A DNA stretch of 33,386 nucleotides from Desulfovibrio sp. (GTDB lineage Bacteria; Desulfobacterota; Desulfovibrionia; Desulfovibrionales; Desulfovibrionaceae): assembly GCA_004796465.1 (NCBI GenBank), contig QZKZ01000028.1:1-33386 (forward strand), read 5' to 3'. A program made the position numbers and the translations under genes. The notes under the pieces are model-generated. The model ran no database searches and had not been told where the DNA came from. It worked only from the letters and a program-made list of their open reading frames with translations. Below are positions 13,944-31,012 of the stretch, one piece after another. How positions within the stretch are numbered: the first letter of the stretch is position 1; the number at the start of each line of letters is the position of its first letter.

Positions 13944-14867
13944 GTGATCCCGCGTCCGCAACATCCCCACCTTTGGCTCGCGGCGCTGATTCTCGTCTTC
14001 TGCCTGGGCTGCGGCCAGGACGAAGAGCCCCTGGAAGTCGACTTGTCCCGGCGCCAGGAGCTTGCCGCGCAACGGGCCGATCACGACCTGACCTATGCCT
14101 ACCTGCCCCAGTATTCCCACACGGTGTCCTATGAACGGCACAGGCTGCTCGTGGCCTACCTCGCGGAGGCGACCGGCTTGGAGCTGCGCCAGGTATTCCC
14201 GGACACCTTTGAAGACCACATCCGCATGGTGGGCAACGGGGAAATCGACATCTCTTTTTCCAATCCCCTGGTGTACGTGCAGTTGGCTGAAAGCGGGGCC
14301 CAGGCTTTTGCCCGCGTCGTGGAGGAGTCAGGACCGGATTTCCGGGGGCAGATCATCTGCGCCCGCGACTCCCACGACCTGACCTCAATTGAGGATTGCC
14401 GGGGAACACGCTGGATAGCCGTGGACCCCTCTTCCGCTGGAGGGTATCTGTTCGCGGTAGGTCTGTTCCTGGACGCCGGGCTCACCCGGGAAGACTTCGC
14501 GGAAATCGCCTTTGCTCCCGGCCCGGGCGGCAAGCAGGAAAAGGTAGTGCTGGCCGTGGACGCCGGAACCTATGATATCGGGGCCATCCGCGAGGGCACC
14601 CTGGACGTGTTGGCCGAGACTCTGGACCTCTCGCGGATTCGCGTCCTTGCCGAGACCCCGGCCTATCCCGGCTGGGTCTACGCCGCCCGTCAGGGACTTG
14701 ACCCCGAGAGAGTGGAAACTTTGTCCCAAGCACTCCTGGCTTTGGACAGCGCGGATCCCGAACATGCGGCCATCCTGGAGGCCGCATGCTTCAACAGCGT
14801 CATTTCGGCCCGCGACTCCGACTATGACCCCATTCGCGAACTTCTTGCCCGGACCCGGGATTTCTGA
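13944..14867 (+). CDS. PhnD-like periplasmic-binding lipoprotein
   Basis: A 307-residue binding protein of the phosphate/phosphite/phosphonate (PhnD, PF12974-like) family. The signal peptide ends in a lipobox-like CLGC, so Cys23 should be lipidated. The domain starts at LTYAYLPQYS, and NGEIDISFSNPLVYVQL and DPSSAGGYLF match the usual anion-binding region. The start is GTG 13944. There is no permease or ATPase nearby; the stop overlaps the start of a membrane histidine kinase by one base. That arrangement, known for binding proteins that work as sensor subunits, suggests it presents its ligand to the kinase instead of importing it. The ligand is unknown. Confidence 0.83.
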   Translation: MIPRPQHPHLWLAALILVFCLGCGQDEEPLEVDLSRRQELAAQRADHDLTYAYLPQYSHTVSYERHRLLVAYLAEATGLELRQVFPDTFEDHIRMVGNGEIDISFSNPLVYVQLAESGAQAFARVVEESGPDFRGQIICARDSHDLTSIEDCRGTRWIAVDPSSAGGYLFAVGLFLDAGLTREDFAEIAFAPGPGGKQEKVVLAVDAGTYDIGAIREGTLDVLAETLDLSRIRVLAETPAYPGWVYAARQGLDPERVETLSQALLALDSADPEHAAILEAACFNSVISARDSDYDPIRELLARTRDF

Positions 14868-16582
14868 TGCTGATGCGTGTGTTCCGCAGGCTCGGTTTCA
14901 GGGCCAAGCTCGGTCTGGGCACAACAGCGATTGTCGTTGTCATGGCTTTGCTGTCCGCGATTCCAGCCAGCCATTTGGTCTCCAAGGCCCTGATCCGTGA
15001 AAACCGCCTGCGGGGGTCGTCCCTGTCGGCCAATCTGGCGGTCCAGGCCGTGGACTCCATGTTGGCCAGGGACTACCTGCGGCTCACCAACCTGGTGGAC
15101 GAGCCTGTTGCCGGAGACACGGGCGTCCTCTATTCCTTTCTCCTCGACTCCCAAGGCAATGTGCTGGTGCATAGCTTTGACGGTGGTTTTCCCACGGACC
15201 TCGTGGCCGTCAATCCAGCCGGGGATTCTGGCGTGAGTATCCGGCTTTTGGACGACCGGGGCAGGCTCATTGACGATTTCGCGGCTCCCGTGACCGTGGC
15301 GGGCTCCCGGTTGGGCACGGTGCGCATCGGTATTTCCCGGGACAACGTGCAGGCCTCCATCAACGAGTTGATCCTGGCCATTATCGGGCTTTCAGCCCTG
15401 GCGCTTGTCCTGGCCATAGGCGCGGCCACGGTGTTTGCCCGGCGCATGACCCTGCGCATCAAGCTGCTGACCAAAAGCGCCGAGGACATGGTGCGGGGCG
15501 AACTGGATAGGGTCACGGCTGTTCCCCCCAAGCGGGGTTGCCGGGAGATCATGGATTGCGAACGCCCGCAATGCCCGGCCTATGGGGAAGACGACCTGCG
15601 CTGCTGGTACGTGGCCGGGACCTTGTGCCCGGACTGCGAGGGGCTCGACGCCTCGGAAAAGTTGAATTCCTGCCGGATATGCAAGGTCTATCATGAGAAC
15701 GCCGGGGACGAGGTCCAGGAACTGGCCGAGACCTTTGACGTCATGGCCCGCTCCCTCAAGGCCCACATCCGGGACCTCACCGAGGCGCATGAGCGCTTGG
15801 TGGAACAGCAAGCCCAGCTCATCCAGTCCCAGAAGATGGAAGCCGTGGGCAAGCTCGCCGGCGGGGTGGCCCACGAGATCAACACCCCCCTGGGCGTGAT
15901 CCTGGGGTACGCCCAGTTGCTGCAAGAGGATTGTGAAGCCGAGAGCCAGATGGCCAGGGACATCGCGATCATTGAAAAGCAGGCCAATGTCTGCCGCAAG
16001 ATCGTGGCCGACTTGCTGGGGTTTTCCCGTATCGAGGAGAGCAGCCGCAAGGAGATGAGTTTCAACGACTCGATCCTGGAAGCAGCGGCCTTGGTGCGCA
16101 GCACCTTGACCATGGACCAGGTGCGGATTCAGGAAGACCTTGACGAGCGCAATCCGGTCATTGTCGGGGATGGAGACAAGCTCAAGCAGGTGTGGATCAA
16201 TTTCCTGAACAACGCCCGGGACGCCATGGAGGGCGGGGGCGCGGTACATATCCGTTCACGGCTCCTGCAAGAGGAAAACACCATGCGGGCTTGGTTCGCG
16301 GATACAGGGCCGGGCATGAGCCAGGAGATCATGGACCGGATCTTCGACCCCTTTTTCACCACCAAGCCCGTGGGCAAGGGAACAGGACTCGGCCTGTCGG
16401 TCTCTTTTGGAATCATCAAGGACCACGGGGGGACTATCCGGGCGGAAAGCCCGGTGAACGAGGACTTGGCCCAAAGCCTGGGCATGGACGGGACCAGGGG
16501 GCCGGGCACCGTGTTCATCGTGGACTTGCCTGTGCGGCCTCCGGATCATGACGAGAACGAGGACATGAACGAGACAACCTGA
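14867..16582 (+). CDS. Membrane sensor histidine kinase with cysteine cluster in HAMP
   Basis: A 571-residue kinase. Transmembrane helices at about 16-36 and 167-190 enclose a sensor domain of about 130 residues outside the cytoplasm. The first HAMP helix (191-214) is followed by an insert with eight cysteines (225, 231, 236, 247, 254, 257, 269, 272), and the second HAMP helix appears only at DEVQELAETFD (281-291). Then come a coiled coil, HisKA with H336 in GGVAHEINTPL, N-box NFLNNARDAM (445-454), G1 DTGPGM and G2 GKGTGLGLS (504-511). The ATG shares one base with the stop of the PhnD-like gene. Cysteine inserts of this kind recur in sulfate-reducer sensors and may bind metal or an iron-sulfur cluster; that role is an inference. 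Confidence 0.9.
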   Translation: MLMRVFRRLGFRAKLGLGTTAIVVVMALLSAIPASHLVSKALIRENRLRGSSLSANLAVQAVDSMLARDYLRLTNLVDEPVAGDTGVLYSFLLDSQGNVLVHSFDGGFPTDLVAVNPAGDSGVSIRLLDDRGRLIDDFAAPVTVAGSRLGTVRIGISRDNVQASINELILAIIGLSALALVLAIGAATVFARRMTLRIKLLTKSAEDMVRGELDRVTAVPPKRGCREIMDCERPQCPAYGEDDLRCWYVAGTLCPDCEGLDASEKLNSCRICKVYHENAGDEVQELAETFDVMARSLKAHIRDLTEAHERLVEQQAQLIQSQKMEAVGKLAGGVAHEINTPLGVILGYAQLLQEDCEAESQMARDIAIIEKQANVCRKIVADLLGFSRIEESSRKEMSFNDSILEAAALVRSTLTMDQVRIQEDLDERNPVIVGDGDKLKQVWINFLNNARDAMEGGGAVHIRSRLLQEENTMRAWFADTGPGMSQEIMDRIFDPFFTTKPVGKGTGLGLSVSFGIIKDHGGTIRAESPVNEDLAQSLGMDGTRGPGTVFIVDLPVRPPDHDENEDMNETT

Positions 16583-16598: not shown

Positions 16599-16958
16599 AT
16601 GGCTTATATACTGGTCTTGGACGACGTGGAGGACGCCGGGCTGCTCATCAAAAGAATTCTGGAGCGGGCCGGGCATGAAGTCGCGGCCTTCACCGAGGAG
16701 GAGGACGCCATTACCCATGCCGAACTGAACATGGTGGACCTGGCGATCCTGGACATCAATCTCAAAAAGATGACCGGCGTGGAAGTCCTGGAGCAACTGA
16801 AAAAGCACTCGCCCAAGATGAAAGCCATCATGCTCACGGGTTACCCGACCATGGAGACGGCCAAGGACGCCCTGCACCTCGGCGCCAGCGACTACTGCGT
16901 CAAACCCATTGACAAGGAAGAGCTGGAAGAAAAGGTCGAGGAAGTCCTGGATATGTGA
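16599..16958 (+). CDS. Single-domain response regulator
   Basis: A 119-residue receiver with acidic pair D8-D9, phosphoacceptor D52 (AILDINL), switch Thr in MLTGYP and the conserved Lys in CVKPID. AAGGAG precedes the ATG, 16 bases after the kinase stop, so it belongs to the same operon and is the likely phosphorylation target. With no output domain it must act by protein contact or pass phosphate on to another protein. The MLTGYPTMETAKDALHLGASDYCVKP region resembles receivers of NtrC-type regulators, from which it may derive. Confidence 0.9.
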   Translation: MAYILVLDDVEDAGLLIKRILERAGHEVAAFTEEEDAITHAELNMVDLAILDINLKKMTGVEVLEQLKKHSPKMKAIMLTGYPTMETAKDALHLGASDYCVKPIDKEELEEKVEEVLDM

Positions 16959-17018: not shown

Positions 17019-17861
17019 GTGAATAGGCTTATTGCGTATGTTGTTGTAATTGTAGTGGTATTGTTGCCTCGAATTTCATTCGCGGGTTTGGGTGTGGTGG
17101 AGCTTGTTGTGCCACCACAGAAATACGGGATATTTATTGCTATCGACGAGTACCCAGAGGAAATACTTACGTTGTATAATTGTAAAAGAGACGCTGATGT
17201 TGTCTCTGGGGCCCTGGGGTGTGATGAGTTTGAAATAACCAAGATATATGATGAAGAGGCAACATATGGGAATATAATGAGAGCACTGGAGGATCGTCTC
17301 AATTCATGCCACGAAGGAGATCTCCTTGTTCTGTTTTTTGCTTCGCACGGAGTCTTGCAGTATGACGACTTCTTCGTGCTTCCCTACTCGGATGGGTATG
17401 AGGCGGGCGTTGGTAGTGCTTCCATCATGCATAGCGCAATATCCGGAAGTTTGATCATGGATTTTGTCTCCTACTTTGTGAAGAAGGATGTCAACGTTAT
17501 TCTGTTCTTTGATACCTGCTACTCCGCAGGCATGAGCTTCGACATCTCAAACTTTTACAATCCCGGCTCAGAGTCGGGGTGCGCGCTCATCGTTTCGGCG
17601 TCGCCCCTGGAAGCCGCTACGGATTCGTCCCAGGATACTTTCAGTTTGCTATTTTCCCAAGGCCTGCTCGGAGAGGCGGACTTCAACAGCGACAAGGAAG
17701 TCACTATTCGGGAGGCCTTTGATTACGCATACGAGCACGTCAGGGAACGCTCAGATGGAATGCAGCACCCCGTATTCATCAGCACGCTTCCCAATACCCT
17801 CGTACTCAAATCCCTTGGAGAGAAAGAAGAACAGGGGATGGAGCCGCAAAGGGTGAGGTGA
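17019..17861 (+). CDS. Exported caspase-like cysteine peptidase (peptidase C14 family)
   Basis: A 280-residue protein. Residues 1-22 form a signal peptide (hydrophobic core followed by RISFA), so it should be exported. The mature part shows the caspase-fold core: the KYGIFIAIDEY strand, the catalytic His in FFASHG (H110) and the catalytic Cys in FFDTCYSAG (C167). An EF-hand-like DFNSDKEVTIREAF segment (221-234) follows, as in other bacterial C14 proteins. The start is GTG 17019 with a weak AGG site. The 5' half is much richer in A+T than the genes before it, a sign of transfer. Its substrate is unknown. It lies 60 bases after the receiver gene and could be read from the same transcript. Confidence 0.82.
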   Translation: MNRLIAYVVVIVVVLLPRISFAGLGVVELVVPPQKYGIFIAIDEYPEEILTLYNCKRDADVVSGALGCDEFEITKIYDEEATYGNIMRALEDRLNSCHEGDLLVLFFASHGVLQYDDFFVLPYSDGYEAGVGSASIMHSAISGSLIMDFVSYFVKKDVNVILFFDTCYSAGMSFDISNFYNPGSESGCALIVSASPLEAATDSSQDTFSLLFSQGLLGEADFNSDKEVTIREAFDYAYEHVRERSDGMQHPVFISTLPNTLVLKSLGEKEEQGMEPQRVR

Positions 17862-17956: not shown

Positions 17957-18089
17957 TTACCCCGCCCCTCGCTCGCTCAAGTACGCGGCGTACTGCTTGT
18001 CCGTGCCCATGATGTGGTTGACGAGCCACTCCTTGAGAAAGGCGAGGACGTTTTCCGGGGTGTTGTCTTCGGCCTCGGGTTCGAACATA
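17957..18089 (-). pseudogene. Orphan 3' end of a hemerythrin gene
   Basis: This stretch matches the last part of the intact hemerythrin gene (18966-19367) at 129 of 132 positions by eye. It encodes about the last 43 residues, from MFEPEAEDN to the stop, including ligands equivalent to H115 and D120 but not the other five metal ligands. The stop here is TAA, while the intact copy has TAG. Upstream of 18089 the sequence no longer matches hemerythrin. It cannot make a functional protein. Confidence 0.85.
17958..18089. repeat. Direct repeat, left copy
   Basis: The left copy of a 132-bp direct repeat; the right copy is at 18967-19098, offset by exactly 1009 bases. I count three mismatches. The two copies flank the toxin-antitoxin module and its promoter. 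Confidence 0.9.
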
Positions 18090-18143: not shown

Positions 18144-18500
18144 CTACGGAGCCCGAAACCGCCTGGGATCCACCTTGAGAACCTTGGCCAGCTTGCGGGC
18201 GGTCTTCTGGCCGATGGGCCGCTTGTTGTTTTCCATTTCGCTCAAGTGCCTGCGGGGAATGCCGGTCAACTCGGCGAGCCGGGCCTGGGTGAGGCCCTCG
18301 CGGTAGCGTGCGCCCGCAAGGAAAACGCCTGGCAATTCCTCGTCGGTGTGGCCCAAGGCTTCTTGCCAGGGGAGGGATGCGCCGGACTCCTGAAAGCCAA
18401 GCGCCCGCATGGCCTCCACCGCTTCCCGAGCCTTGGCCGCCGGTCCGGTGAAGCGCAAGGCCACATCCTTAGTAGGGGGCTTTTTCGTGTGTTCCAACAT
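18144..18500 (-). CDS. XRE-family HTH antitoxin
   Basis: A 118-residue protein. The C-terminal half (about 65-112) is a Cro/CI-type helix-turn-helix: GLTQARLAELTGIPRRHLSEME then NNKRPIGQKTARKLAKVL. The N-terminal half (1-60) is probably the toxin-neutralising part. Its start lies inside the toxin gene, giving a 32-base overlap, and toxin-first order is typical of HigBA-type modules. It should bind the palindrome upstream of the toxin gene and repress the operon together with the toxin. Confidence 0.85.
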   Translation of the reverse strand: MLEHTKKPPTKDVALRFTGPAAKAREAVEAMRALGFQESGASLPWQEALGHTDEELPGVFLAGARYREGLTQARLAELTGIPRRHLSEMENNKRPIGQKTARKLAKVLKVDPRRFRAP

Positions 18501-18965: not shown

Positions 18966-19367
18966 CTACCCCGCCCCTCGCTCGCTCAAGTACGCGGCGT
19001 ACTGCTTGTCCGTGCCCATGATGTGGTTGACGAGCCACTCCTTGAGAAAAGCAAGGACGTTTTCCGGGGTGTTGTCTTCGGCCTCGGGTTCAAACATAAG
19101 AATCATGAGGTTGGCCACGAACTCGTCGTGTTCGCTTATATGCTCTTCCACGTCGGGAAACGCGTGTTCGGTCAGAAGCGCTTCCTCGGTCTGAAAGTGT
19201 TCCTTGGCGTAATTGGACATTTTGGTGATGATCTCGTGGTACCGCACATCCCCTTGGTTGAGGAGAATCGCGGTTTCCAGCTCGTTCAGCATATTCAGCA
19301 GCTTTTTGTGTTGGGCGTTCAAAGTGGTGTTGTTCACCGACAAGTCTTCCGTCCATGATACAGGCAT
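18966..19367 (-). CDS. Bacteriohemerythrin 1
   Basis: A 133-residue single-domain hemerythrin, which binds O2 (or NO) reversibly at a di-iron centre in the cytoplasm. The likely ligands are all present: H20, H57, E61 (HFQTEE), H76 and H80 (HISEH), H115 and D120 (HIMGTD). GGAGG precedes the ATG. It lies downstream of a hairpin terminator and has a 197-base upstream gap, so it probably has its own promoter. Its 3' 132 bases are repeated at 17958-18089. It is a diverged paralog of the hemerythrin at 20188-20589. Roles known for the family include oxygen storage, sensing and detoxification. Confidence 0.92.
   Translation of the reverse strand: MPVSWTEDLSVNNTTLNAQHKKLLNMLNELETAILLNQGDVRYHEIITKMSNYAKEHFQTEEALLTEHAFPDVEEHISEHDEFVANLMILMFEPEAEDNTPENVLAFLKEWLVNHIMGTDKQYAAYLSERGAG
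18967..19098. repeat. Direct repeat, right copy, within hemerythrin 1
   Basis: The right copy of the 132-bp repeat, forming the 3' end of the intact hemerythrin gene. It shares the same stretch from TACCCCG at the stop-codon end to ACATA with the left copy. Confidence 0.9.
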
Positions 19368-20600: not shown

Positions 20601-21509
20601 TTAGTTTTGCGAGGCCTTGTCAAGGTCGATGATTTGCAAGTCGTCGGAGTACTCCGCCACTTCATAGGTCGTGATGTTCTGCACCTTGTTGATCAGCCTG
20701 GAAAGGGCGGTGACGTTGTCGCGCATGGACTGCAGGGCCTCGCCCACTTCCTTGTCGTTGTCCCCGAGCTGACCTTGCAGGAAATCCACGTCAAAGCTGA
20801 GGGTTTGCAGGGGCTGGCTGAATTCGTGGGCCGCGGCGCCGGCCATTTCGAGCACGCCTTGCAGCTTGCCCGCGCGGATCTTTTCCGCTTCGGCCTTTTT
20901 GCGCTCCTCCATCTCATGTTCGAGGCGCAGGGTTCGTTCCCGCACTTTGGCCTCGAGATGCAGGTTCAATTCGCTCAACTCTTTCTGGTTGAGTCCCATC
21001 TCCCCAAGCAGCGAGGCCAGGGCGGTCAAGAAATTCATGCCCAACTCCAGCCTCTCCCTGGACAGCACCGGCACGCGGTCCACGGCCTGGAGATATTCGG
21101 TTTCATCAAAGCCGAAAGTCGCGGCCTGCTTTCGGAAGAACTCCCTGTCCGGAGGGTCCAGGAAAAACTGGCCCGCAAACAAGTTGGCCACGTGCCGTTC
21201 GCCGATGATGATGGGCGCGGCCATGTCCACAAGCCCGTTCAGGCATTTGTAGCTGGCGTACCCTGTTTTTCCGTTGAGTTGCTTGGCCAACTCCGTGTCG
21301 CTTTGCACGCAACGTTCAAGGGTTTGGGGGTGCTTGCGGTGGAACTCCGTGCATATGCGCTGCCAGCCCACCTTGACCAAGACATTGCCCTCCACATCGG
21401 TGATGGATGGGGGTATGCCGGTCAGGCGGTAGAAACTTTCGGCCAGGCCCTGGATCTTGTCCAGGTCCACCAGGTCGCCAAAGGAGTACTCCATGGTTCG
21501 GGGCTGCAA
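20601..21509 (-). CDS. PocR-domain protein with HisKA domain but no kinase ATPase
   Basis: A 302-residue cytoplasmic protein. Residues about 12-170 match the PocR ligand-binding domain (PAS-like fold, known for small hydrocarbon or propanediol-type ligands), with cysteines at 53, 67 and 89. A coiled coil (175-215) leads into a HisKA-like helix pair with a candidate phosphoacceptor H228 in AAHEFSQPLQ. The protein ends about 75 residues later with no N, G1 or G2 box, so it cannot bind ATP as a normal kinase. I chose TTG 21509 as start because AAGGAG lies five to six bases upstream; the in-frame ATG at 21494 is too far from it. It may be phosphorylated by, or pair with, the large kinase of this operon. 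Confidence 0.82.
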   Translation of the reverse strand: MQPRTMEYSFGDLVDLDKIQGLAESFYRLTGIPPSITDVEGNVLVKVGWQRICTEFHRKHPQTLERCVQSDTELAKQLNGKTGYASYKCLNGLVDMAAPIIIGERHVANLFAGQFFLDPPDREFFRKQAATFGFDETEYLQAVDRVPVLSRERLELGMNFLTALASLLGEMGLNQKELSELNLHLEAKVRERTLRLEHEMEERKKAEAEKIRAGKLQGVLEMAGAAAHEFSQPLQTLSFDVDFLQGQLGDNDKEVGEALQSMRDNVTALSRLINKVQNITTYEVAEYSDDLQIIDLDKASQN

Positions 21510-21539
21510 GCGTTTCTCCTTGGTTAGGGTAACTGCCCG

Positions 21540-22547
21540 CTATGTCCAGTTTTCCGCGAACCCCTCGTTCCGGAACATGTTCAGGCAGGCCTGCACCACG
21601 TCCCTGTCATAGAGCGTGCCCGCATTGTGCTCCACTTCATCCAGGGCGGCGTCAAGGCCCTTGCCCGGCCTATAAGGGCGGTCAAAGGCCATGGCCTCCA
21701 CCACGTCGGCCACGGCAATGATCTTGGCTTCGTCCAACAACTGGTCGCCGCGAAGGCCTTGGGGATAGCCGCTGCCGTCCAAACGTTCATGGTGCTGCAG
21801 CACGATCTCGCTGAGGGGCCAGGGAAACTCCACGGGAGACAGGATGTCCGAACCGACCTGGGAGTGGTTTTTGATGATGGAAAATTCAGCGCTGCTGAGT
21901 TTGCCCGGCTTGTTGAGGAACTCGGCCGGAACGTAGAGTTTGCCGATATCGTGCACCATGGCGGCCATGCGCAAGCCTTGGGTGCGGTCCCTGTCCATTC
22001 CCAGCCGCTGGGCCAGGACCGCGCTGAGATCGGCCACCCGGCGCTGGTGCCCGGCTGTATACGGGTCGCGCGCTTCCACCAGGGCGGAAAAGCCGAAGAT
22101 GATGCCTTCCATGGCCTTGCCGATCTTGCGCAGGTATTCCAGTTCCGAATGGGCGCGGAGCATGCGGTGCTGGTCCAGGCTCGCGTCCACGGCCCTTTTG
22201 ATGTCTTCTTCCTGGCAAGGTTTGGTGAGTATCCTGAAGACATAGCCATTGTTGACCGCGGCAATGGCGTTTTCCAGGTTGGCGTAACCCGTGAACAGGA
22301 TGCGCACCGAGTTGGGGGAGATATCCTTGGCCTTGGCCAAGAAAGTGATGCCGTCCATGTTCGGCATCTTCAGGTCCGAGACGATCACGGCAAAGGGCTC
22401 TTGCTGACCGATGAGCTCCAGGGCCTGTTCACCACTGTCCGCGGTGGTGATGGAATAATTGCTGCCCAGCAAGCGGCGGATGGACGCCAAAAAGTTGGGG
22501 TTGTCGTCCACGAACAGGATCCGGCGGTTGTTTTTGGAGTGCGGCAC
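21540..22547 (-). CDS. Response regulator with intact HD-GYP c-di-GMP phosphodiesterase domain
   Basis: A 335-residue RpfG-type protein. The receiver has D14-D15, phosphoacceptor D58 (VSDLKMP) and the Lys in LTKPC. The HD-GYP domain is complete: HDIGK (199-203), the KPGKL segment, NHSQVGSDIL and HHERLDGSGYP (252-262). It should break down the second messenger c-di-GMP when the receiver is phosphorylated. The GTG at 22547 has GAAAGGGG just upstream and clears the stop of the preceding gene; the TTG at 22571 would overlap it. It lies 30 bases before the PocR-HisKA gene. Confidence 0.88.
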   Translation of the reverse strand: MPHSKNNRRILFVDDNPNFLASIRRLLGSNYSITTADSGEQALELIGQQEPFAVIVSDLKMPNMDGITFLAKAKDISPNSVRILFTGYANLENAIAAVNNGYVFRILTKPCQEEDIKRAVDASLDQHRMLRAHSELEYLRKIGKAMEGIIFGFSALVEARDPYTAGHQRRVADLSAVLAQRLGMDRDRTQGLRMAAMVHDIGKLYVPAEFLNKPGKLSSAEFSIIKNHSQVGSDILSPVEFPWPLSEIVLQHHERLDGSGYPQGLRGDQLLDEAKIIAVADVVEAMAFDRPYRPGKGLDAALDEVEHNAGTLYDRDVVQACLNMFRNEGFAENWT

Positions 22548-22558
22548 GGGAGCCCCTT

Positions 22559-23722
22559 TCACAGTTTGCAATACGTGGTTTCGAGAACCTTGAAAGGTTG
22601 GTTCACGTTGTATTCTTGCGAGAAGCGCAGGAGATAGGCAATGGCCATTTCGCTCACCTCTTGGCCCTCGGCGAGGAGTTTGATCACCTCTTCCCCCTTC
22701 ATGGCGAAGATGTCCTCGGCCACGACCATGCCCGGCTCCAGGCCGTGCAGGTAAATCTTACGCTCGTTGAACGCCGGGCTTTCCCCCAGGGTGCTGAAGA
22801 GGTGGCCCAGCACGTCGGGATCATAGAGGTTGTCCTTGCCGGCCAAGGCGTTCAGGGCCTCACCTTGGGTCAGGCCCCAGGAGGTCAGCCGGTCGCAATC
22901 CAAGCAAACCTTGAGGATACGTGCGCCCAAGGGGATGTCATCCTTCTGCACATTGTCTTCAGGCACGCCGGTCCCGTTATAGCACTTTTCCTGGTAGGCG
23001 ATGATGCGGGCCACCTCCTCCAGGCGGGGGATCTTCTCGATGAACGACGCGGCAAGGGAAGGGTGCTCGTTGAACAACCGTTGTTCCCTGGGACCAAGGG
23101 TCTGCCCGGCAAGGTCCTTTTCCACGATGCTCTCGGGCAGGGTCACGAAGCCGATCATGGACAGCCTGGTGCCGGTGACCGCCTCCCAAAGATAGGGCGG
23201 GTCCATCTCCCGGCAGATATGGCGGACATAGGGGGTGATGCGGGATATGCGGCCGTAGACCGTGGGTTTGACCAGGGAGATGAGGTCGCCGAGCACGCCC
23301 ACGCTTTTTTGGATGGTCTTTTCCATGAGTTCCCGCCGGGCCGCGGCGATCTCATAGTACTGAATGCCGTCGACCAAGGCCTTGGCCATGGTCTTGGGCG
23401 GGCAAGGCTTTTGCAGCATCCTGAAGATATTGCCTTCGTTCACCGCTTCCAGGGCCACGTTGATCTCGGCATAGCCCGTGAGCAGGATGCGCACCGTGTC
23501 CGGAACACGTTTGTTCACTTCGGACAGGAACTCCACCCCGTTCATCCCCGGCATTTTATAATCGGAGATGATGATGCTGAAAGGCGCATCCTCTTTGATC
23601 AATTCCAGGGCGGAGTCTCCGTTTTCAGCAGTGGTCACGTCGAACCGCGCGGACAGGATTCTTTTGAAGGAAGAAAGCAGCCGGGTGTCGTCGTCAACTA
23701 TCAGGATTTTGTGTTTCAACAT
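22559..23722 (-). CDS. Response regulator with degenerate HD-GYP-like domain
   Basis: A 387-residue protein. The receiver is intact: D10-D11, phosphoacceptor D54 (ISDYKMP), Thr in LLTGYA and Lys in LQKPC. The C-terminal region aligns with HD-GYP, but the metal-binding residues are gone: LSMIGFVTLPESI (187-199) stands where HDIGK-IPDSI is expected, and AYQEKCYNGTGVP (242-254) where HHERxDGSGYP is expected. It probably lacks phosphodiesterase activity and may bind c-di-GMP or another protein. A C-terminal extension of about 90 residues follows the domain. AAGGAG precedes ATG 23722. Confidence 0.82.
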   Translation of the reverse strand: MLKHKILIVDDDTRLLSSFKRILSARFDVTTAENGDSALELIKEDAPFSIIISDYKMPGMNGVEFLSEVNKRVPDTVRILLTGYAEINVALEAVNEGNIFRMLQKPCPPKTMAKALVDGIQYYEIAAARRELMEKTIQKSVGVLGDLISLVKPTVYGRISRITPYVRHICREMDPPYLWEAVTGTRLSMIGFVTLPESIVEKDLAGQTLGPREQRLFNEHPSLAASFIEKIPRLEEVARIIAYQEKCYNGTGVPEDNVQKDDIPLGARILKVCLDCDRLTSWGLTQGEALNALAGKDNLYDPDVLGHLFSTLGESPAFNERKIYLHGLEPGMVVAEDIFAMKGEEVIKLLAEGQEVSEMAIAYLLRFSQEYNVNQPFKVLETTYCKL

Positions 23723-23734
23723 GAACCGTGCTCC

Positions 23735-24925
23735 TTACTGGCAGTGCTCCAAGACGTCTTTCCAATCCGGAAGGATGTTCTCAAGGGGAGAGGAGGCAAG
23801 TTTGTTTGCATACATTTCTTGCAAGGCATAGTGGGAATGGATGATGGTGTGCACATGGTCCAGGAGGTTGCCGAGGTGTATCTCAAACAGCGGGGCCGAG
23901 TCCTCGGGGATGGGCTGCAGGGAGTGGTGCAGGAACATGGCTTGGGTGACATTCGCGGGGATGCCCCACAGGCCCATCAAGTAGGCTCCCACATTGGCGT
24001 GGGATGTTCCGAACTCGCGTTCCTCCACCTCGTGCACGGTGTGTTTTCCCTCACCGACCACGGCGAGCACCCCGTTGTATTGCTCGGGAAAATGCGTGGC
24101 CAGCACGAGTTTGCCTATATCGTGTAAAAGCCCGGCCAGGAAAGCGTGGTCAGCCTCCTCCGCAGAGCGGCCCCGGGCAAGGGCCAGCCGTTTGCCCAGG
24201 CAGGCCACCCGTTGGCTGTGGTCCCACAGCATGGGGATGGAAAAGCCCGGCACCTTGGCCGGATCGTACACAGTAAAAGCCTGCACCGTCAGGACCAGGG
24301 ACCTGATCATGTTCAGCCCGAGCAGCATGACGGCTTGCTTGGGCTCGCTGACCTTGTTGCCGCCGTAATAGGGTGAGTTGACCAGGGCGATGAGCTTGGA
24401 ACTCAGGGCCACGTCTTGGGCAATGAGCGAGGCCACTGCGTCGATGGACGGTTCTTCCGAGTAGAGCTCCTGGGTGATGCGGTTGAAGGTCTCGGGTATG
24501 GCGGGCAAGGACTCGATGGTGGTGACGAGGTCCTTGAGCCCGTTGCCGAGTCCGTCGCCGTCTACCTTGGCGAGGTCCTCGATCAGGCCGACCAGCGTCT
24601 GGTAATCGCAGGGCTTCATGAGGAACTGGTGGGCCGAGAATACGGTCTGGCTCTGGAATTCACGGCTGGGCTGGCCGGTCAGCATGACGCGTTTCAAGCC
24701 GGGATGGGCGTGCTGCACTTTTTTGAGCAGTTGGTTGCCGTCCATGCCGGGCATGAGCAAGTCCGTGACAATGATGTGGCAGGGATTCTCCTTGAGAAAA
24801 GCGAGCGCTTCCTCGCCGCTGGTCACAAAGGTCATGTCCCATTCCTGGCGTTTGGGCGCCAGCATGCGCCGCAGGCCGCTCAGGACGAGCTTTTCGTCGT
24901 CAACGAACAGGATGCAGGTTTTCAC
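23735..24925 (-). CDS. Response regulator with HDOD output domain
   Basis: A 396-residue protein. The receiver has the acidic pair D9-D10, phosphoacceptor D55 (VTDLLMP) and a Lys in LMKPC. The HDOD domain (about 130-330) starts at IESLPAIPETFNRI, continues with ALSSKLIALVNSPYYGG and QAVMLLGLNMIRSLVL, and keeps an HDIGK motif at 268-272. HDOD domains are HD-related but usually bind or scaffold instead of hydrolysing nucleotides. The start is GTG 24925. It lies 24 bases after the large kinase gene and 12 bases before the degenerate HD-GYP gene, so it is part of the same operon. Confidence 0.87.
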   Translation of the reverse strand: MKTCILFVDDEKLVLSGLRRMLAPKRQEWDMTFVTSGEEALAFLKENPCHIIVTDLLMPGMDGNQLLKKVQHAHPGLKRVMLTGQPSREFQSQTVFSAHQFLMKPCDYQTLVGLIEDLAKVDGDGLGNGLKDLVTTIESLPAIPETFNRITQELYSEEPSIDAVASLIAQDVALSSKLIALVNSPYYGGNKVSEPKQAVMLLGLNMIRSLVLTVQAFTVYDPAKVPGFSIPMLWDHSQRVACLGKRLALARGRSAEEADHAFLAGLLHDIGKLVLATHFPEQYNGVLAVVGEGKHTVHEVEEREFGTSHANVGAYLMGLWGIPANVTQAMFLHHSLQPIPEDSAPLFEIHLGNLLDHVHTIIHSHYALQEMYANKLASSPLENILPDWKDVLEHCQ

Positions 24926-24949: not shown

Positions 24950-27900
24950 TTATTCCGTGTTTTCCAAGGGCAGGGTGATGGTGAATGTCGTGCCTACCCC
25001 TTCCTCGCTGTCAAGGGCAATATCCCCGCCGTGCTTGTCCCGGATCACGCTGTAGCTGATGGCCAAGCCTTGCCCCGATCCCTTGCCCACGTCCTTGGTG
25101 GTGAAAAAGGGATCAAAAACCTTGGTGCGGATTTCCTCGGGAATGCCCATGCCCGTGTCGGACACCTGTATTTGGGCTTTGTCGCCCAAGTGTTTGGTGG
25201 CAATGGTGATCGTTCCCCTGGTGTCGGGATTGGAGCCCAATTTTTCCTGGATGGTGTGGGCCGCGTTGATGATCAAGTTCAGAATGACTTGGTTGAGTTC
25301 AGCCTTGAAACCCGGAACAAGCGGGAGTGACTCGTCCAGGTCCATGTCCAGGTCTGCCGCGTATTTCCATTCATTGGTGGACACCGTGACCGTGCTGCGC
25401 ACGGCCTCGTTGAGGTCCAGGTAATCCCGGTCCTGCTTGCCGGGGTGGGCCAACTGCTTCACGGACTGGACGATTTTTGAGATGCGTTCCAGCCCTTCCA
25501 GGGAGTCGGAGAGCGCCTCGGGCAATTCCTCGGCCAGGAGGCTGTAATCGTATTTTCTCAGGAGAGGGCCGAACTCGGCGGGCATTCCCTCGGCGCTGTC
25601 TTCGTCTTCGGCGTGTTCAAGGTCGGCGCAGACCGTGATCAGGGCCAACAAGCCTTCCATGCTGTCTTGGAGAAAACGGATGTTGTTGTCCACGTACTGG
25701 ACCGGCGTATTGATTTCATGGGCAATGCCCGCAGCGAGCTGGCCGATGGATTCCAATTTTTGCGCTTGCAGGAGCTGGGCCTCCAACAGTTTGTGCTCGG
25801 TAATGTTGGTGACCACGCCAAGGGAACCGATGAAATCGCCCTCGTCATCGAACAGGGGCGTGGGGGAGACCAGGCAAAAAACCTTGTCGCCTTCCCTGTT
25901 GAGAAAGGTCAGTTCGTACTTCTCGGAGCCACCCTGCCTGCGGCTGGCAAGTTGTTCCAGCAAGTGGTCTGTTTCCGCGGGATCGATGAAATCCGCGCAC
26001 GCCTTGCCCAACACCTCGGAACGGGACAGGCCGAGCATCTTGCACAACTGGTGGTTGACGTAGGTGAAGGCCCCCTTGTCGTTGAGCATGAAGATGCCTT
26101 CCTGCATGGATTCCACCAGGGTCCGGTAGCGCTCCTCGCTTTCCGTGAACATTCTCCTGGCTTCCATGCCCTGGATGGCCAAGCCGTAATAGCGGGCGAG
26201 CTCTTCAACGCAGGCCAGGTCATTGGCGTTGAATCCATCCTCCTTGTTGGCCAGGGCAATGAGTCCGGCTCTTCTTTCGCCGAGCACCACGGGCACGGCA
26301 AGGAACTGTCTGATGGGAACATGCCCCTGGGGGAGCCCTGTAGACGCCGCGTGCTGTTCCGGCTCATTGGTGTAGAAGGAAAGGTTTTCATTAAGAGGAT
26401 ATCCCCACAGTCCGGGATACGTGGCTGCCTCGGGCGGTGAGATGCAGTCCTTGTCCACGGAGTCCATGGCGCACTGCTCGCCGAATATTGTATCAAAGGT
26501 ATGGGGCCGGAGCCTTTGGGTTTCCGGGTCAAGGGTGGCGCACAGGGCGTACTCCGCCCTGGTCAGCATGAGGGATTCCTCGTACAGGGCATTGGAGATT
26601 TCCTTGAGCGTGGTGTTTTGTCCCACAAGGAGTTCGTAGAGCCGGGACAGGGCGCCCTGGACCTGGAGATTCTTGCGCAGCCTGTGCTCGCGCTCTTTCC
26701 TGTCGGAAATGTCGAGGTGCACGCCCACCATGCGCAGGGGCGCTCCACTGGAGTCGCGCTCCACCATCTTGCCCACGGCAAGGATCCATTTCCAGCCGCC
26801 GGTCTTGGTTTGCAGGCGGAATTCGGATTTGTAGATCTGGTTGCCCTGTTTGGCCCGTTGGATGTCCGTGGCCGTGGTCTCCTTGTCCTCGGGATGGATC
26901 AGGTCCCAGAACGTGGATTCGTCGCTGGGCAATTCGCCCGGTTCATAGCCGATCATGGCCAGCAGGGTTTTGTCGAAGAGCATGCTGCCGGAAAGGAGGT
27001 TCCAGTCCCACATGCCCAGCTCCGACGCTGACAAGGCCATTTCGAGGCGCTCCCGGCTGACCACGAGCGCTTCCTCAACCTTTTTGCGGATGGTGATGTC
27101 TTGGCCGTAAATGTTGAGGTACCCGGAGTCGACCACCGGCGCGAAGGTCAGACCGAACTGGAAGTTGCCGGTGTCCAGGTCCATCAGGATGTTTCGCCCG
27201 GATTTCAGAGCGTTTAAACATAATTCAAGGATGTTGGGCGGCAGCCGCTCACCCATTTCGCATTTCCAGTGTCCCAAGAGCACGCGGCTGGCCTGGTTGG
27301 CGTAAAGAAGCATGCCCTCTGTATCCACGCGCATGACGGGATTGGGGTTTTCCGAAGGGAACCGCGCCAAGTCGCGGACTGCTTCTTCAGCCTTGCGGCG
27401 GTCCGTCACGTCCGTGATCACGGCGACGGACCCGCTGTGGTTCCCTTGTTCATCCACTAGAGGATTGGCGGAGATGACCGTTTGGACCACATGTCCCTCC
27501 TTGTGGAGGTACGCAAAGTCATAGGTCTCGGCCACTCCCTGTTTGCGGAGTTCAATATGCTGCTCGGAGAGTTCAACGACTTCATCCTCCATGAAGTTGA
27601 AGAGCTGCTTGCCGAGCATTTCCTCCGGTGCGTAGCCCAGCATGTCGGCCATGGCTTGGTTGACAAACACGGTGTTCGAATCCTTGTCGATTTCCCAGAT
27701 GCCTTCATGCAGGTTGACCAGCAAGGAGCGGTACTTCTTTTCGCTGGCTTCCAAGGCGTCTTGGGCCGCGATAAAGTCGTCGCGGGCCTGCTTCTCCCGG
27801 GTGATCTTGAACAAACCGTCCAGAAACAGGTTGAGCTGGAGCACGTCGAATTCCGTATAGGGCTGTTCCTTGTTGCCCACACCCAGGATGGCTTGGATTT

Positions 27901-30799
27901 TCCCATCAAGGTAGATGGGAACGCTCATGTGCCTGACCACGGGAAAGTGGCCTTCCGGGTATCCCTTTTTATCCGGTTCGTTCTGATAGTCGTTATGGAT
28001 CACGGGACCGCCCTGGCGGACACAGTCCGCCCAGATCCCCGCTTTTTCCATGGGGTAGTGCAGGCCGGTGGACACCTCGCATTCCTTGGCCACATCCCCG
28101 GACCAAATGTTGAGGTGGATGGTTTCCTGGTCCGAGTCGATGTAATGCAGATAGCCTGCCTTGCTTCCGGTCAGGCGCACGGCTTCTTCCAGGGCGTATG
28201 TGTTGATTTCCTCCACCCCGGCGTCCTGCATCTGGCTCAGCGTGAACAGAGTCTCGAACCGCTCGCGGTGCAGGTGGTCCTCGCTGATGGCCCGGTTCTG
28301 GCGAATGACCCGCCAGGCCTCGGACATGATGATGGAGACGAGCTTCACGTCCTCGTCAATGTAGTCCCCGGCCTTGTTGGCCACGCCCGCGAGCAGCACA
28401 ATCCGGTTGGCGTCGAAAATGGGAACCACGAGAAAGCCCTGCATGGGACCGCCCTTTTCAGCCCCTGAACCTTGCGGAACTTCCGAGCCGGAGCCATTGG
28501 AGATGACGGGCTCACGCCGTTCAAGGGCAACCTTCCACACTCCCTTGGGCGGGTATTCTCGAATACTGGGCTCCGGTGGTATGCCTCCCGAATTCATGCC
28601 TTGGTTCAGCCAGGCCCAGGGTGTCAGCATTTTTTCCTTGGGCCCCACCAGCATGACCGAGCCGAGTTCACTATGGGTCAGGTCGGCCACGGCGCTTAGG
28701 GCAAAATCCAAAATGGGCTGGTCAGGCTCGCCCGTCATCAGGCCGAGGCGCAGGAGGATTTCCAGCCGCTTTTCATTGTCCGCCATGACCTTTTCGTTTT
28801 CCACCCGCTCGGTCACGTCGGTGATCACGGCCAACATGTGGGGCGAGCCCCTGTAGTCCACAAGGGTTCCCCTTGCTTCAGTGGGAAAGGTTGTGCCGTC
28901 CTTGCGCATATCCAGGGTCTTGCCTTGGAATCTTCCGGTTTCGTGCAATTGAGCGACGTATTGATTGAACTTGCCCAGGTGGACGGGGTGGATGAGGTCG
29001 ACGGCAGCGAGGTCCATGATTTCCTCGGCCGTATACCCGTAAGTTTCGCAAGCCGCCCGATTGGCGTTGATCACGTTTCCGTCAAAGTCCGCGATGAACA
29101 GGCAATCGGTCACCGAGTCAAAGATGTCCCGGTACTCCTGCTCACTTTTCGCCAGGGCGATCTCCGAAGCCTTGCGGTCCGTGATGTCCACGAAGGTGCC
29201 CATGAACTGGAGGACTTGGCCTTGCTCGCCGAACTTGAAGGGGGTGTCCCTGGACAGGCACCAAATCCAGTTGCCGCTCTTGTGCAGGAACCTGTACTCC
29301 AGTTCGAAAACATCTCCCTCGGCAGCTTGGGACAGCTTGCCCATATGCTCGGACAGGGAGGGAAGGTCGTCCGGATGGAAAAGGTCGCTCATGTCCTCGT
29401 TGGACATGGCCTCGTAACTCGTGAGGTCATAGCCCAGGATGCTGGTGTAGCCCGTATTCACGTACACGTTTCGCTCTGCTTCCAGGTCGAAAACATACAG
29501 GCCCGTGGGGGAGGACGTTTCCAGCATTTTGAGGAAGTACTCGCTTTCCTTGAGTGCGGTTTCAGCCAACACCCGCGCCGTGACGTCCAGACCCACGGCC
29601 TGGTATTTCACGATTTGTCCCTCGGGGGTGAAAAAGGCCCGGTTGGTCCACTCTTGGTAGAGCTTTTCGTTGCTGGTCAGGACCTCATGGACAATAGAGT
29701 TGCTGCTGTTTTCCGGAGTCAGGACCAGGTAGCCGTTTTTGACCCGCTCCTTATCCTCTTCAGGGACAAAATCCAAAAAACGTTTCCCCACAAGCTTCTC
29801 AACGCTTGAACCAAAAAACTCGCAATACATGGCGTTGACATAGGTCAAGGTGGAGTCGGGCTGGAATTCGCAGACCATGGCCGGAAGGTCTTCGGATAGA
29901 GCTCGGTAGCGCTCTTCGCTCAGCTTGAGGGCATGCTCGGCTTTTTTGCGTTCCGTGATCTCCATGACGGTTGCGCCGAGCGCGAATATTTCTCCATCCG
30001 GGGTGCGGATGGGGTAATAGTCGGCCAGACAGTTGATCGTCATGCCCGGTTTTGCAGCTGATTCTCCTTCGACTTCCTGTCCGAGCACAGAGAGTCCGGT
30101 TTGCATAATGCTTCGGAGAACAGGTTCAACTTCATGGCTGATTTGCGGCAGAACCTCATGGAGAGTGTGGCCGATATGCTCTTTAATGGATTTTCCATTG
30201 ATTTCCGCGAGCTTCTGGTTGACGCGGACATAACGCAGGTCAGTGTCGAAAACCGCCATGCCGATGGGCGCGGTCTGGTAGATGTGGTCCAGTTCGGCAA
30301 GCTGCTTTTCGATCTGCCCGCGGCCGACCAAAAGACCTTGTTCAGCAGCCGCCTTTTCCGTGACGTCGTGGCAGGCGATGAGCACAACCGCGTTGCCCAG
30401 GCTGATCTCCTTGATCGTGATGTCCAGGACAACAGGCTTGCCCGACTTGTGGTTCGTCTTCCAGTCGGGAAAGTGGATTTCCTTTTCACGGCGGATTTGG
30501 TCCAAGTCGTACAGCCCCGGGCCAAAAAGGCTTTCCACGGTTCCCATGGCCGCGACCTCGGTGGTGTCGTAGCCAAAAATCTGGCTGCAGTACTTGCAGA
30601 CATAGTCGAACCTTGCCTGCGCATCAGCCGTGAACACCGCGCCGGACAAGGAAGAAAGCAGCAGTTCGTTCAGCTCTTCTTTTTCCGAAGCCAAACCGTC
30701 CTTGGACTCGAGCAATGCCGAATACCTCTTTTCGACGTCGCGCAATCGCTCGACCTCGGCCGCCAACTCCCCCCTTGTCATCGTCTCAGGTTGCTTCAT
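24950..30799 (-). CDS. Very large cytoplasmic multi-PAS/GAF sensor histidine kinase
   Basis: A kinase of about 1,949 residues, first gene of the sensory operon, with no membrane segment. By repeated linker motifs such as DITDRK I read PAS domains at about 48-150, 166-286, 297-410, 420-540 and 553-665; GAF at 680-835 and 847-1003; PAS at 1019-1133, 1140-1238 and 1250-1365; GAF at 1380-1545; PAS at 1552-1668. Then come HisKA with H1694 (GIAHEINTPVQ) and HATPase with N-box LNLIINAAH, G1 DTGMGIP and G2 GKGSGQGL. An acidic insert lies between HisKA and the ATPase (about 1725-1775). No receiver is attached. I chose ATG 30799, with GGGGGCAGG upstream, over TTG 30811. It can integrate many signals, and the receivers next to it are its likely targets. 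Confidence 0.88.
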   Translation of the reverse strand: MKQPETMTRGELAAEVERLRDVEKRYSALLESKDGLASEKEELNELLLSSLSGAVFTADAQARFDYVCKYCSQIFGYDTTEVAAMGTVESLFGPGLYDLDQIRREKEIHFPDWKTNHKSGKPVVLDITIKEISLGNAVVLIACHDVTEKAAAEQGLLVGRGQIEKQLAELDHIYQTAPIGMAVFDTDLRYVRVNQKLAEINGKSIKEHIGHTLHEVLPQISHEVEPVLRSIMQTGLSVLGQEVEGESAAKPGMTINCLADYYPIRTPDGEIFALGATVMEITERKKAEHALKLSEERYRALSEDLPAMVCEFQPDSTLTYVNAMYCEFFGSSVEKLVGKRFLDFVPEEDKERVKNGYLVLTPENSSNSIVHEVLTSNEKLYQEWTNRAFFTPEGQIVKYQAVGLDVTARVLAETALKESEYFLKMLETSSPTGLYVFDLEAERNVYVNTGYTSILGYDLTSYEAMSNEDMSDLFHPDDLPSLSEHMGKLSQAAEGDVFELEYRFLHKSGNWIWCLSRDTPFKFGEQGQVLQFMGTFVDITDRKASEIALAKSEQEYRDIFDSVTDCLFIADFDGNVINANRAACETYGYTAEEIMDLAAVDLIHPVHLGKFNQYVAQLHETGRFQGKTLDMRKDGTTFPTEARGTLVDYRGSPHMLAVITDVTERVENEKVMADNEKRLEILLRLGLMTGEPDQPILDFALSAVADLTHSELGSVMLVGPKEKMLTPWAWLNQGMNSGGIPPEPSIREYPPKGVWKVALERREPVISNGSGSEVPQGSGAEKGGPMQGFLVVPIFDANRIVLLAGVANKAGDYIDEDVKLVSIIMSEAWRVIRQNRAISEDHLHRERFETLFTLSQMQDAGVEEINTYALEEAVRLTGSKAGYLHYIDSDQETIHLNIWSGDVAKECEVSTGLHYPMEKAGIWADCVRQGGPVIHNDYQNEPDKKGYPEGHFPVVRHMSVPIYLDGKIQAILGVGNKEQPYTEFDVLQLNLFLDGLFKITREKQARDDFIAAQDALEASEKKYRSLLVNLHEGIWEIDKDSNTVFVNQAMADMLGYAPEEMLGKQLFNFMEDEVVELSEQHIELRKQGVAETYDFAYLHKEGHVVQTVISANPLVDEQGNHSGSVAVITDVTDRRKAEEAVRDLARFPSENPNPVMRVDTEGMLLYANQASRVLLGHWKCEMGERLPPNILELCLNALKSGRNILMDLDTGNFQFGLTFAPVVDSGYLNIYGQDITIRKKVEEALVVSRERLEMALSASELGMWDWNLLSGSMLFDKTLLAMIGYEPGELPSDESTFWDLIHPEDKETTATDIQRAKQGNQIYKSEFRLQTKTGGWKWILAVGKMVERDSSGAPLRMVGVHLDISDRKEREHRLRKNLQVQGALSRLYELLVGQNTTLKEISNALYEESLMLTRAEYALCATLDPETQRLRPHTFDTIFGEQCAMDSVDKDCISPPEAATYPGLWGYPLNENLSFYTNEPEQHAASTGLPQGHVPIRQFLAVPVVLGERRAGLIALANKEDGFNANDLACVEELARYYGLAIQGMEARRMFTESEERYRTLVESMQEGIFMLNDKGAFTYVNHQLCKMLGLSRSEVLGKACADFIDPAETDHLLEQLASRRQGGSEKYELTFLNREGDKVFCLVSPTPLFDDEGDFIGSLGVVTNITEHKLLEAQLLQAQKLESIGQLAAGIAHEINTPVQYVDNNIRFLQDSMEGLLALITVCADLEHAEDEDSAEGMPAEFGPLLRKYDYSLLAEELPEALSDSLEGLERISKIVQSVKQLAHPGKQDRDYLDLNEAVRSTVTVSTNEWKYAADLDMDLDESLPLVPGFKAELNQVILNLIINAAHTIQEKLGSNPDTRGTITIATKHLGDKAQIQVSDTGMGIPEEIRTKVFDPFFTTKDVGKGSGQGLAISYSVIRDKHGGDIALDSEEGVGTTFTITLPLENTE

Positions 30800-31012
30800 G
30801 CCTGCCCCCAATACCGGATACTGGAAAAACTTTGCGGAGAACTAGCCTTAACGTAACAAGCGCTATGGGTTTTGTACAAGAAAATCGTGCTTATCCGCGA
30901 TACGTATCCCGAGAGCGAAGCAAGCATCCCCTGCAAATCGCCGGGGCCGTCACAAAGGTATTGTCTCATGAGTTTTGTTGGGCATACAAAGAGCTGAACC
31001 GGAGGCAACGTC

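Follow-up and report, generated by a model that had tools for sequence, protein, structure and literature searches.

Three consecutive genes on the forward strand of contig QZKZ01000028.1 of Desulfovibrio sp. encode a periplasmic binding protein, a sensor histidine kinase and a single-domain response regulator (Table 1). Positions 1 to 33,386 of this contig are referred to below as the window. The kinase start codon shares bases with the stop codon of the binding-protein gene in a TGATG overlap. In Pfam scans, the kinase is composed of a transmembrane segment (TM), an sCache_3_2 domain (residues 41–168), a second TM, a HAMP domain split by an insert, a HisKA domain carrying H336, and HATPase_c.

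Table 1. Features of the window discussed in the text
Feature	Position	Strand	Remarks
PtxB/PhnD/AioX-type periplasmic binding protein	13944..14867	+	Pfam Phosphonate-bd 6.7e-57
Sensor histidine kinase	14867..16582	+	571 aa ORF
HAMP, first part	15431..15529	+	Residues 189–221, profile positions 1–31
Eight-cysteine insert, two_CW-like	15530..15697	+	Residues 222–277; NF045718 match, 108-row alignment
HAMP, second helix	15698..15760	+	Residues 278–298, profile positions 32–52
Single-domain (CheY-like) response regulator	16599..16958	+	Pfam Response_reg 5e-26
Caspase-fold (Peptidase_C14) protein	17019..17861		Signal-like N-terminus
Direct repeat, left copy	17958..18089		132 bases, copies 98% identical
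XRE-type HTH gene	18144..18500	-	Between the repeat copies
Hemerythrin-like gene	18966..19367	-
Direct repeat, right copy	18967..19098		3' end of the hemerythrin-like gene
REC-HDOD gene, two REC-HD genes, PocR-domain gene	20601..24925	-	Adjoin the next gene
Kinase-type protein	24950..30811	-	1953 residues, many PAS and GAF domains

The remainder of the window holds features of its own. The caspase-fold protein lies after the response regulator, a place often taken by a PPDK-like gene in relatives. Between the two copies of the direct repeat, the XRE-type gene is accompanied by an ORF judged HigB/RelE-like by eye, for which Pfam gave no match; the arrangement is as if a toxin–antitoxin-like cassette had duplicated the end of the hemerythrin-like gene on insertion.

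A HAMP domain split by an eight-cysteine insert had been proposed in a sequence-only reading of this DNA, and the two HAMP profile parts on either side of the insert confirm it. The HAMP profile PF00672 matches the kinase with 27.9 bits in two stretches, above the 25 bits taken as the threshold and with both helices covered; scanned separately, the first half scores 16.5 bits (residues 171–224 alone) and the second 19.0 bits. The kinase is absent from the list of 43 matches returned by a whole-genome HAMP search. The cut falls between profile positions 31 and 32, directly ahead of the GDE(V/I) at the start of helix 2, and since the profile breaks off before the insert and resumes after it at the next position, the insert sits at the junction of connector and second helix. 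Relatives show the same break: the first half ends at position 24–31 in seven of them (L011, L013, L016, L029, L034, L140 and L142), and the second half starts at position 32–35 in L037 and L039. This fixed split point counts in favour of the explanation developed below. The insert comes after the second of the two hydrophobic segments of the kinase (residues 161–193), a position that points to a cytoplasmic location and supports its earlier placement on that side of the membrane between the two HAMP helices. The helix boundaries first estimated at residues ~214 and ~281 are close to those of an AlphaFold2 model of the HAMP-insert fragment, in which helix 1 extends to ~209 and helix 2 begins at ~282.

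Eight of the ten kinase cysteines fall inside the 56-residue insert, at positions 225, 231, 236, 246, 254, 257, 269 and 272 (CX5CX4CX9CX7CX2CX11CX2C); the other two are at 356 and 376. Residues 222–279 thus hold eight cysteines in 58 positions versus two in the 513 elsewhere (Fisher p = 2.7e-7). The CX5CX4C and CX2C-type spacings noted earlier are borne out by these positions and by their conservation in 108 aligned inserts, which comprise the window, 80 loci from named genomes (the best 80 of 130 relatives) and 27 loci from a second collection, a few rows being one locus present in both. The named-genome scan was built from nine closer inserts, as 28 diverse inserts share no conserved stretch; its patterns, which supplied 80 of the 108 rows, include RCWY..GT and so bias C246 and W247, not the other cysteines. 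In alignment A5, by comparison, most inserts were chosen by their cysteine pattern and invariant columns arise partly by construction; the figures given here come from the 108-row alignment, which was built without that pattern. C225, C231, C236, C246, C269 and C272 are kept in every row, C254 in 106, C257 in 98, and all eight together in 97. The proposed check for the insert in other HAMP proteins thus found it in relatives, with six cysteines invariant. W247 is likewise present throughout (108/108) and W226 in 106 rows, the window departing from its relatives in one respect, namely R226 in place of this tryptophan. Because C257 is replaced in 10 rows and C254 in two, not every cysteine is a needed ligand, which counts against the explanation favoured below; C257 is missing from whole subgroups in which the others persist.

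With its flanks, the insert matches the NCBIfam family NF045718, two_CW_domain (E 1.2e-6, 28.8 bits). The curated cut-off of this family is 35 bits, and the window scores below it in three scans (28.0, 28.8 and 29.4 bits). The second of the two CW motifs is present (C246-W247) and the first reads CR (C225-R226); all eight positions of the cysteine framework of two_CW relatives are cysteine in the window. NF045718 is matched by all 28 members of an insert alignment made of the window and 27 relatives, with a best E of 1.4e-11. Run at E up to 1, the profile also produced matches short of the cut-off in 4 of the 14 control genomes. Matches near E = 1 are accordingly meaningless; the window's own E there is 1.1e-5. 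By sequence comparison, the insert is a diverged relative of the uncharacterised two_CW domain: it shares with the 27 aligned relatives the same cysteine order with CW motifs, and it differs from the family in its score below the cut-off, the missing first tryptophan and its placement inside HAMP. Pfam finds only HAMP across this region and no model for the insert. The name two_CW appeared in no paper in a literature search, and the literature searched, in part as titles and abstract openings, contained no description of such a module inside HAMP.

The module is found in varied protein contexts. A search of 297 phylum genomes with the insert gave matches in 106 of them at an E of 0.01 or less, weak matches included. 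Among the best 80 of 130 relatives, the named matches are nearly all Desulfobacterota or deltaproteobacteria of the sulfate-reducer type, with two Nitrospiraceae (L076, L115). A survey of 20 hand-picked places, which provides examples and not frequencies, located the module in HAMP kinases whose sensor domains are of the sCache or Mcp40H type, in one methyl-accepting chemotaxis protein (L039), and in two large proteins, close to the N-terminus (L137, which also has PAS and kinase domains, and L138). In the hybrid kinases L133 and L134, HAMP is intact and the module lies between the ATPase and receiver domains; L135 is similar by sequence. Its presence in these other signalling proteins marks it as portable, with an input or regulatory role, and counts for the explanation favoured below. 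The tree computed from 73 inserts is poorly resolved, with 15 of 70 inner branches well supported, and it places HAMP-embedded forms on either side of one supported split. Loci L123, L125 and L126–L132 include stand-alone two_CW proteins of 72–74 residues and seven proteins of 122–157 residues with an N-terminus that is HTH-like by eye and a two_CW tail; for one of the latter type, L129, a Pfam scan at E up to 0.001 gave no match. These small proteins are possible soluble metal or redox regulators.

The AlphaFold2 model of the HAMP-insert fragment, computed from an 81-row alignment, has a mean pLDDT of 82.9. Within it, the insert is loop-rich, contains short helices and lacks strands, at a pLDDT of mostly 68–84; a model of the insert alone (73 rows) has a mean pLDDT of 78.6 and three short helices. 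No relative of the insert was found by sequence among solved structures (best E 1.2). Foldseek searches with the HAMP fragment returned nothing below E 0.001, the best match being the HAMP domain of Af1503 at E 6.7, and the insert alone gave no match at any E up to 10. With neither a solved relative nor a fold match, no particular metal can be assigned, which counts against the explanation favoured below. A heme c site was considered and dropped, as the insert contains no CXXCH.

The upstream binding protein is probably a lipoprotein, with an LGC lipobox near residue 23 by eye. Its nearest solved structures are PtxB (2.3e-15), a phosphonate-binding protein, ArrX, HtxB and AioX, and the sensory proteins AioX and ArrX among them count for the favoured explanation. 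A search with the binding protein, in which the insert played no part, matched 38 of the 297 phylum genomes at E up to 1e-20: 19 orthologues at E 1.3e-96 or better are followed by a clean gap, the rest lying at 2.5e-28 or worse. Thirty of the 38 loci were fetched, and the insert, detected by pattern, is present in 24. An insert-bearing kinase adjoins all 19 orthologous binding proteins, the window's own counted, and all five distant ones from a single genus (36–39% identical), whose kinases carry the framework minus C257 and have lysine in place of W226. In the other six fetched loci, the insert was not found within 1.5 kb flanks; one of these, L171, has an adjoining kinase whose HAMP is uninterrupted by eye. 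Since the orthologous binding proteins all stand beside insert-bearing kinases, the insert is a regular part of this kinase lineage. In the distant genus (L162–L165, L169), the protein upstream of the insert-bearing kinase apparently consists of two binding-protein modules in tandem (552 residues by eye in L162 and L164).

The kinase is preceded by the binding protein at 76 loci among the best 80 of 130 relatives, and two of the four misses are at contig starts. At 50 of these 80 loci, the kinase is closely followed by a receiver at least 50% identical to that of the window; six loci end too soon, and 24 lack a close one despite enough flank. Of 13 loci inspected downstream of the kinase, two (L052 and L099) encode a longer receiver protein there; that of L099 is a sigma-54 activator, located between the kinase and TauE. 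Judged from gene neighbourhoods, the signalling unit is a binding protein, a kinase and, in 50 of these 80 loci, a receiver, and the periplasmic ligand is probably delivered by the dedicated PtxB/AioX-like protein encoded just upstream.

In the AioXSR systems, the regulator is a DNA-binding protein of the sigma-54 type, whereas the window receiver consists of a receiver domain only, with no output domain in the Pfam scan. The kinase of the window is further set apart by its cysteine module. The likeness to the arsenic-sensing systems AioX-AioS-AioR and ArrX (PMC5908839) is in the combination of a PtxB-fold periplasmic sensor protein, a kinase and a regulator, and the window has such a sensor protein adjoining its kinase.

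A parallel to the relatives is the Desulfovibrio 'nitrate cluster', Dde_0597-0605 in D. alaskensis G20 and DVU0251-0245 in D. vulgaris (PMC4001038). Among the matches listed, the neighbours that recur in relatives are PPDK-like proteins (35 loci), the TauE family (10) and a dual-specificity phosphatase family (9), each family being named from one or two scanned members; in L050, L057, L070, L071 and L088, TauE lies upstream and PPDK downstream, all on the kinase strand. The same set of TauE, PtxB-like protein, HAMP kinase, CheY-like receiver, PPDK-like protein and phosphatase makes up the nitrate cluster, and this match counts for the favoured explanation. In the window, the genes for the PtxB-like protein, the kinase and the receiver follow one another in that order on a single strand. 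The window differs in having these three genes only, with no TauE or PPDK-like gene beside the operon among the ORFs scanned, and in a kinase without PAS; the published table gives HAMP and PAS for the nitrate-cluster kinase, and the cysteine module is unmentioned in the part of the source seen. The make-up of the cluster suggests that Dde_0602 would carry the insert. The window genome, ~95% complete, gives weak matches only (PPDK E 1.7e-10, TauE E 2.9e-4), and this want of a close partner counts against the favoured explanation. In G20, fitness in nitrate is raised by mutations in the genes for TauE, the binding protein, the kinase (Dde_0602, fitness +2.34), the receiver and the PPDK-like protein, and the authors proposed a leaky thiosulfate transporter, citing unpublished weak growth on thiosulfate. 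The D. vulgaris kinase is annotated as a pseudogene and its isolated mutant had little or no advantage in preliminary data; DVU0245 and DVU0250 behaved in pools opposite to their G20 homologues. Nitrate resistance arose both from loss of the nitrate cluster and from loss of the redox regulator Rex (PMC4001038).

The best explanation, to which we assign a probability of about 0.58, is a three-component oxyanion sensor whose HAMP domain carries a cytoplasmic cysteine-ligated metal site as a second input or structural brace. To the gene order, split HAMP, cysteine conservation and binding-protein association, all read directly from the sequences, we add the following steps by inference. The PtxB/AioX-like lipoprotein of the operon would bind a small oxyanion, at best guess a sulfur oxyanion such as thiosulfate, and would dock onto the sCache domain of the kinase; the signal would then pass via TM2 into HAMP helix 1. 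The insert would be a two_CW-type metal module, holding a [4Fe-4S] cluster or zinc within the HAMP connector, and its metal or redox state at the hand-over from helix 1 to helix 2 would set the signal passed on to HisKA and the receiver, or veto it. In relatives, the neighbouring TauE and PPDK-like genes may be under control of the system. These parts are not equally firm. That the insert binds metal, a reasonable proposal of the sequence-only reading, is very probable from its sequence, the cysteines being among its most conserved positions, as such a site would require. A role in modulating the hand-over has slightly better than even odds, and redox sensing, which the same reading had suggested, somewhat less than even as against a structural zinc. 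The loss in the window of the near-invariant W226 and the 24 of 80 loci (best 80 of 130) without a close receiver despite enough flank also count against the explanation as a whole.

Three other accounts of the insert were weighed against this metal-bearing relay. Zinc might act purely as a structural clamp, holding the lengthened HAMP connector in its fold without contributing a signal. Such a clamp would fit the zinc-ribbon-like arrangement of four cysteines as two CX2C pairs (C254/C257 and C269/C272), all four occurring in 97 or more of the 108 rows, and also the location of the module outside HAMP in other proteins; yet C257 is lost from whole subgroups that retain the other cysteines, and six invariant cysteines are more than a mere spacer needs. 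The predicted fold, at moderate model confidence, differs from zinc ribbons and rubredoxins in its lack of strands, which speaks weakly against a zinc ribbon. A clamp and nothing more is rather unlikely.

Lower still in probability is a metal-free thiol switch that senses cytoplasmic disulfide, polysulfide or persulfide. The many cysteines of a small, loop-rich module would suit it, and so would the sulfide-rich life style of the hosts, as judged from organism names; six invariant cysteines together with the conserved CW and CPAY motifs nevertheless exceed what a two-cysteine switch needs, and resting disulfides are disfavoured in the reduced cytoplasm. These points leave the switch improbable. 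That the insert is a chance or lineage-specific loop without function could be argued from the window itself, which lacks W226 and scores below the two_CW cut-off, but the module is kept in 19 of 19 orthologous and five of five distant systems, and its cysteines persist in different families, two Nitrospiraceae records (among the best 80 of 130) included. Conservation refutes this last account, which retains next to no credence.

HAMP domains are relays and not usually sensors. A conserved cysteine module at the hand-over, fixed in one three-component lineage, would place a second input inside the relay. We tentatively consider, at odds clearly below even, a two-input gate in which signalling requires both a periplasmic oxyanion, bound by way of its binding protein, and a suitable state of the cytoplasmic cluster. 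If true, such a gate would tie the uptake of alternative sulfur electron acceptors by sulfate reducers to their internal redox state, and it would fit the nitrate resistance that follows loss of such a cluster or of Rex in the published work (PMC4001038). The link to the nitrate cluster supplies a phenotype, nitrate resistance and weak thiosulfate growth, in bacteria of importance to oil souring and the sulfur cycle.
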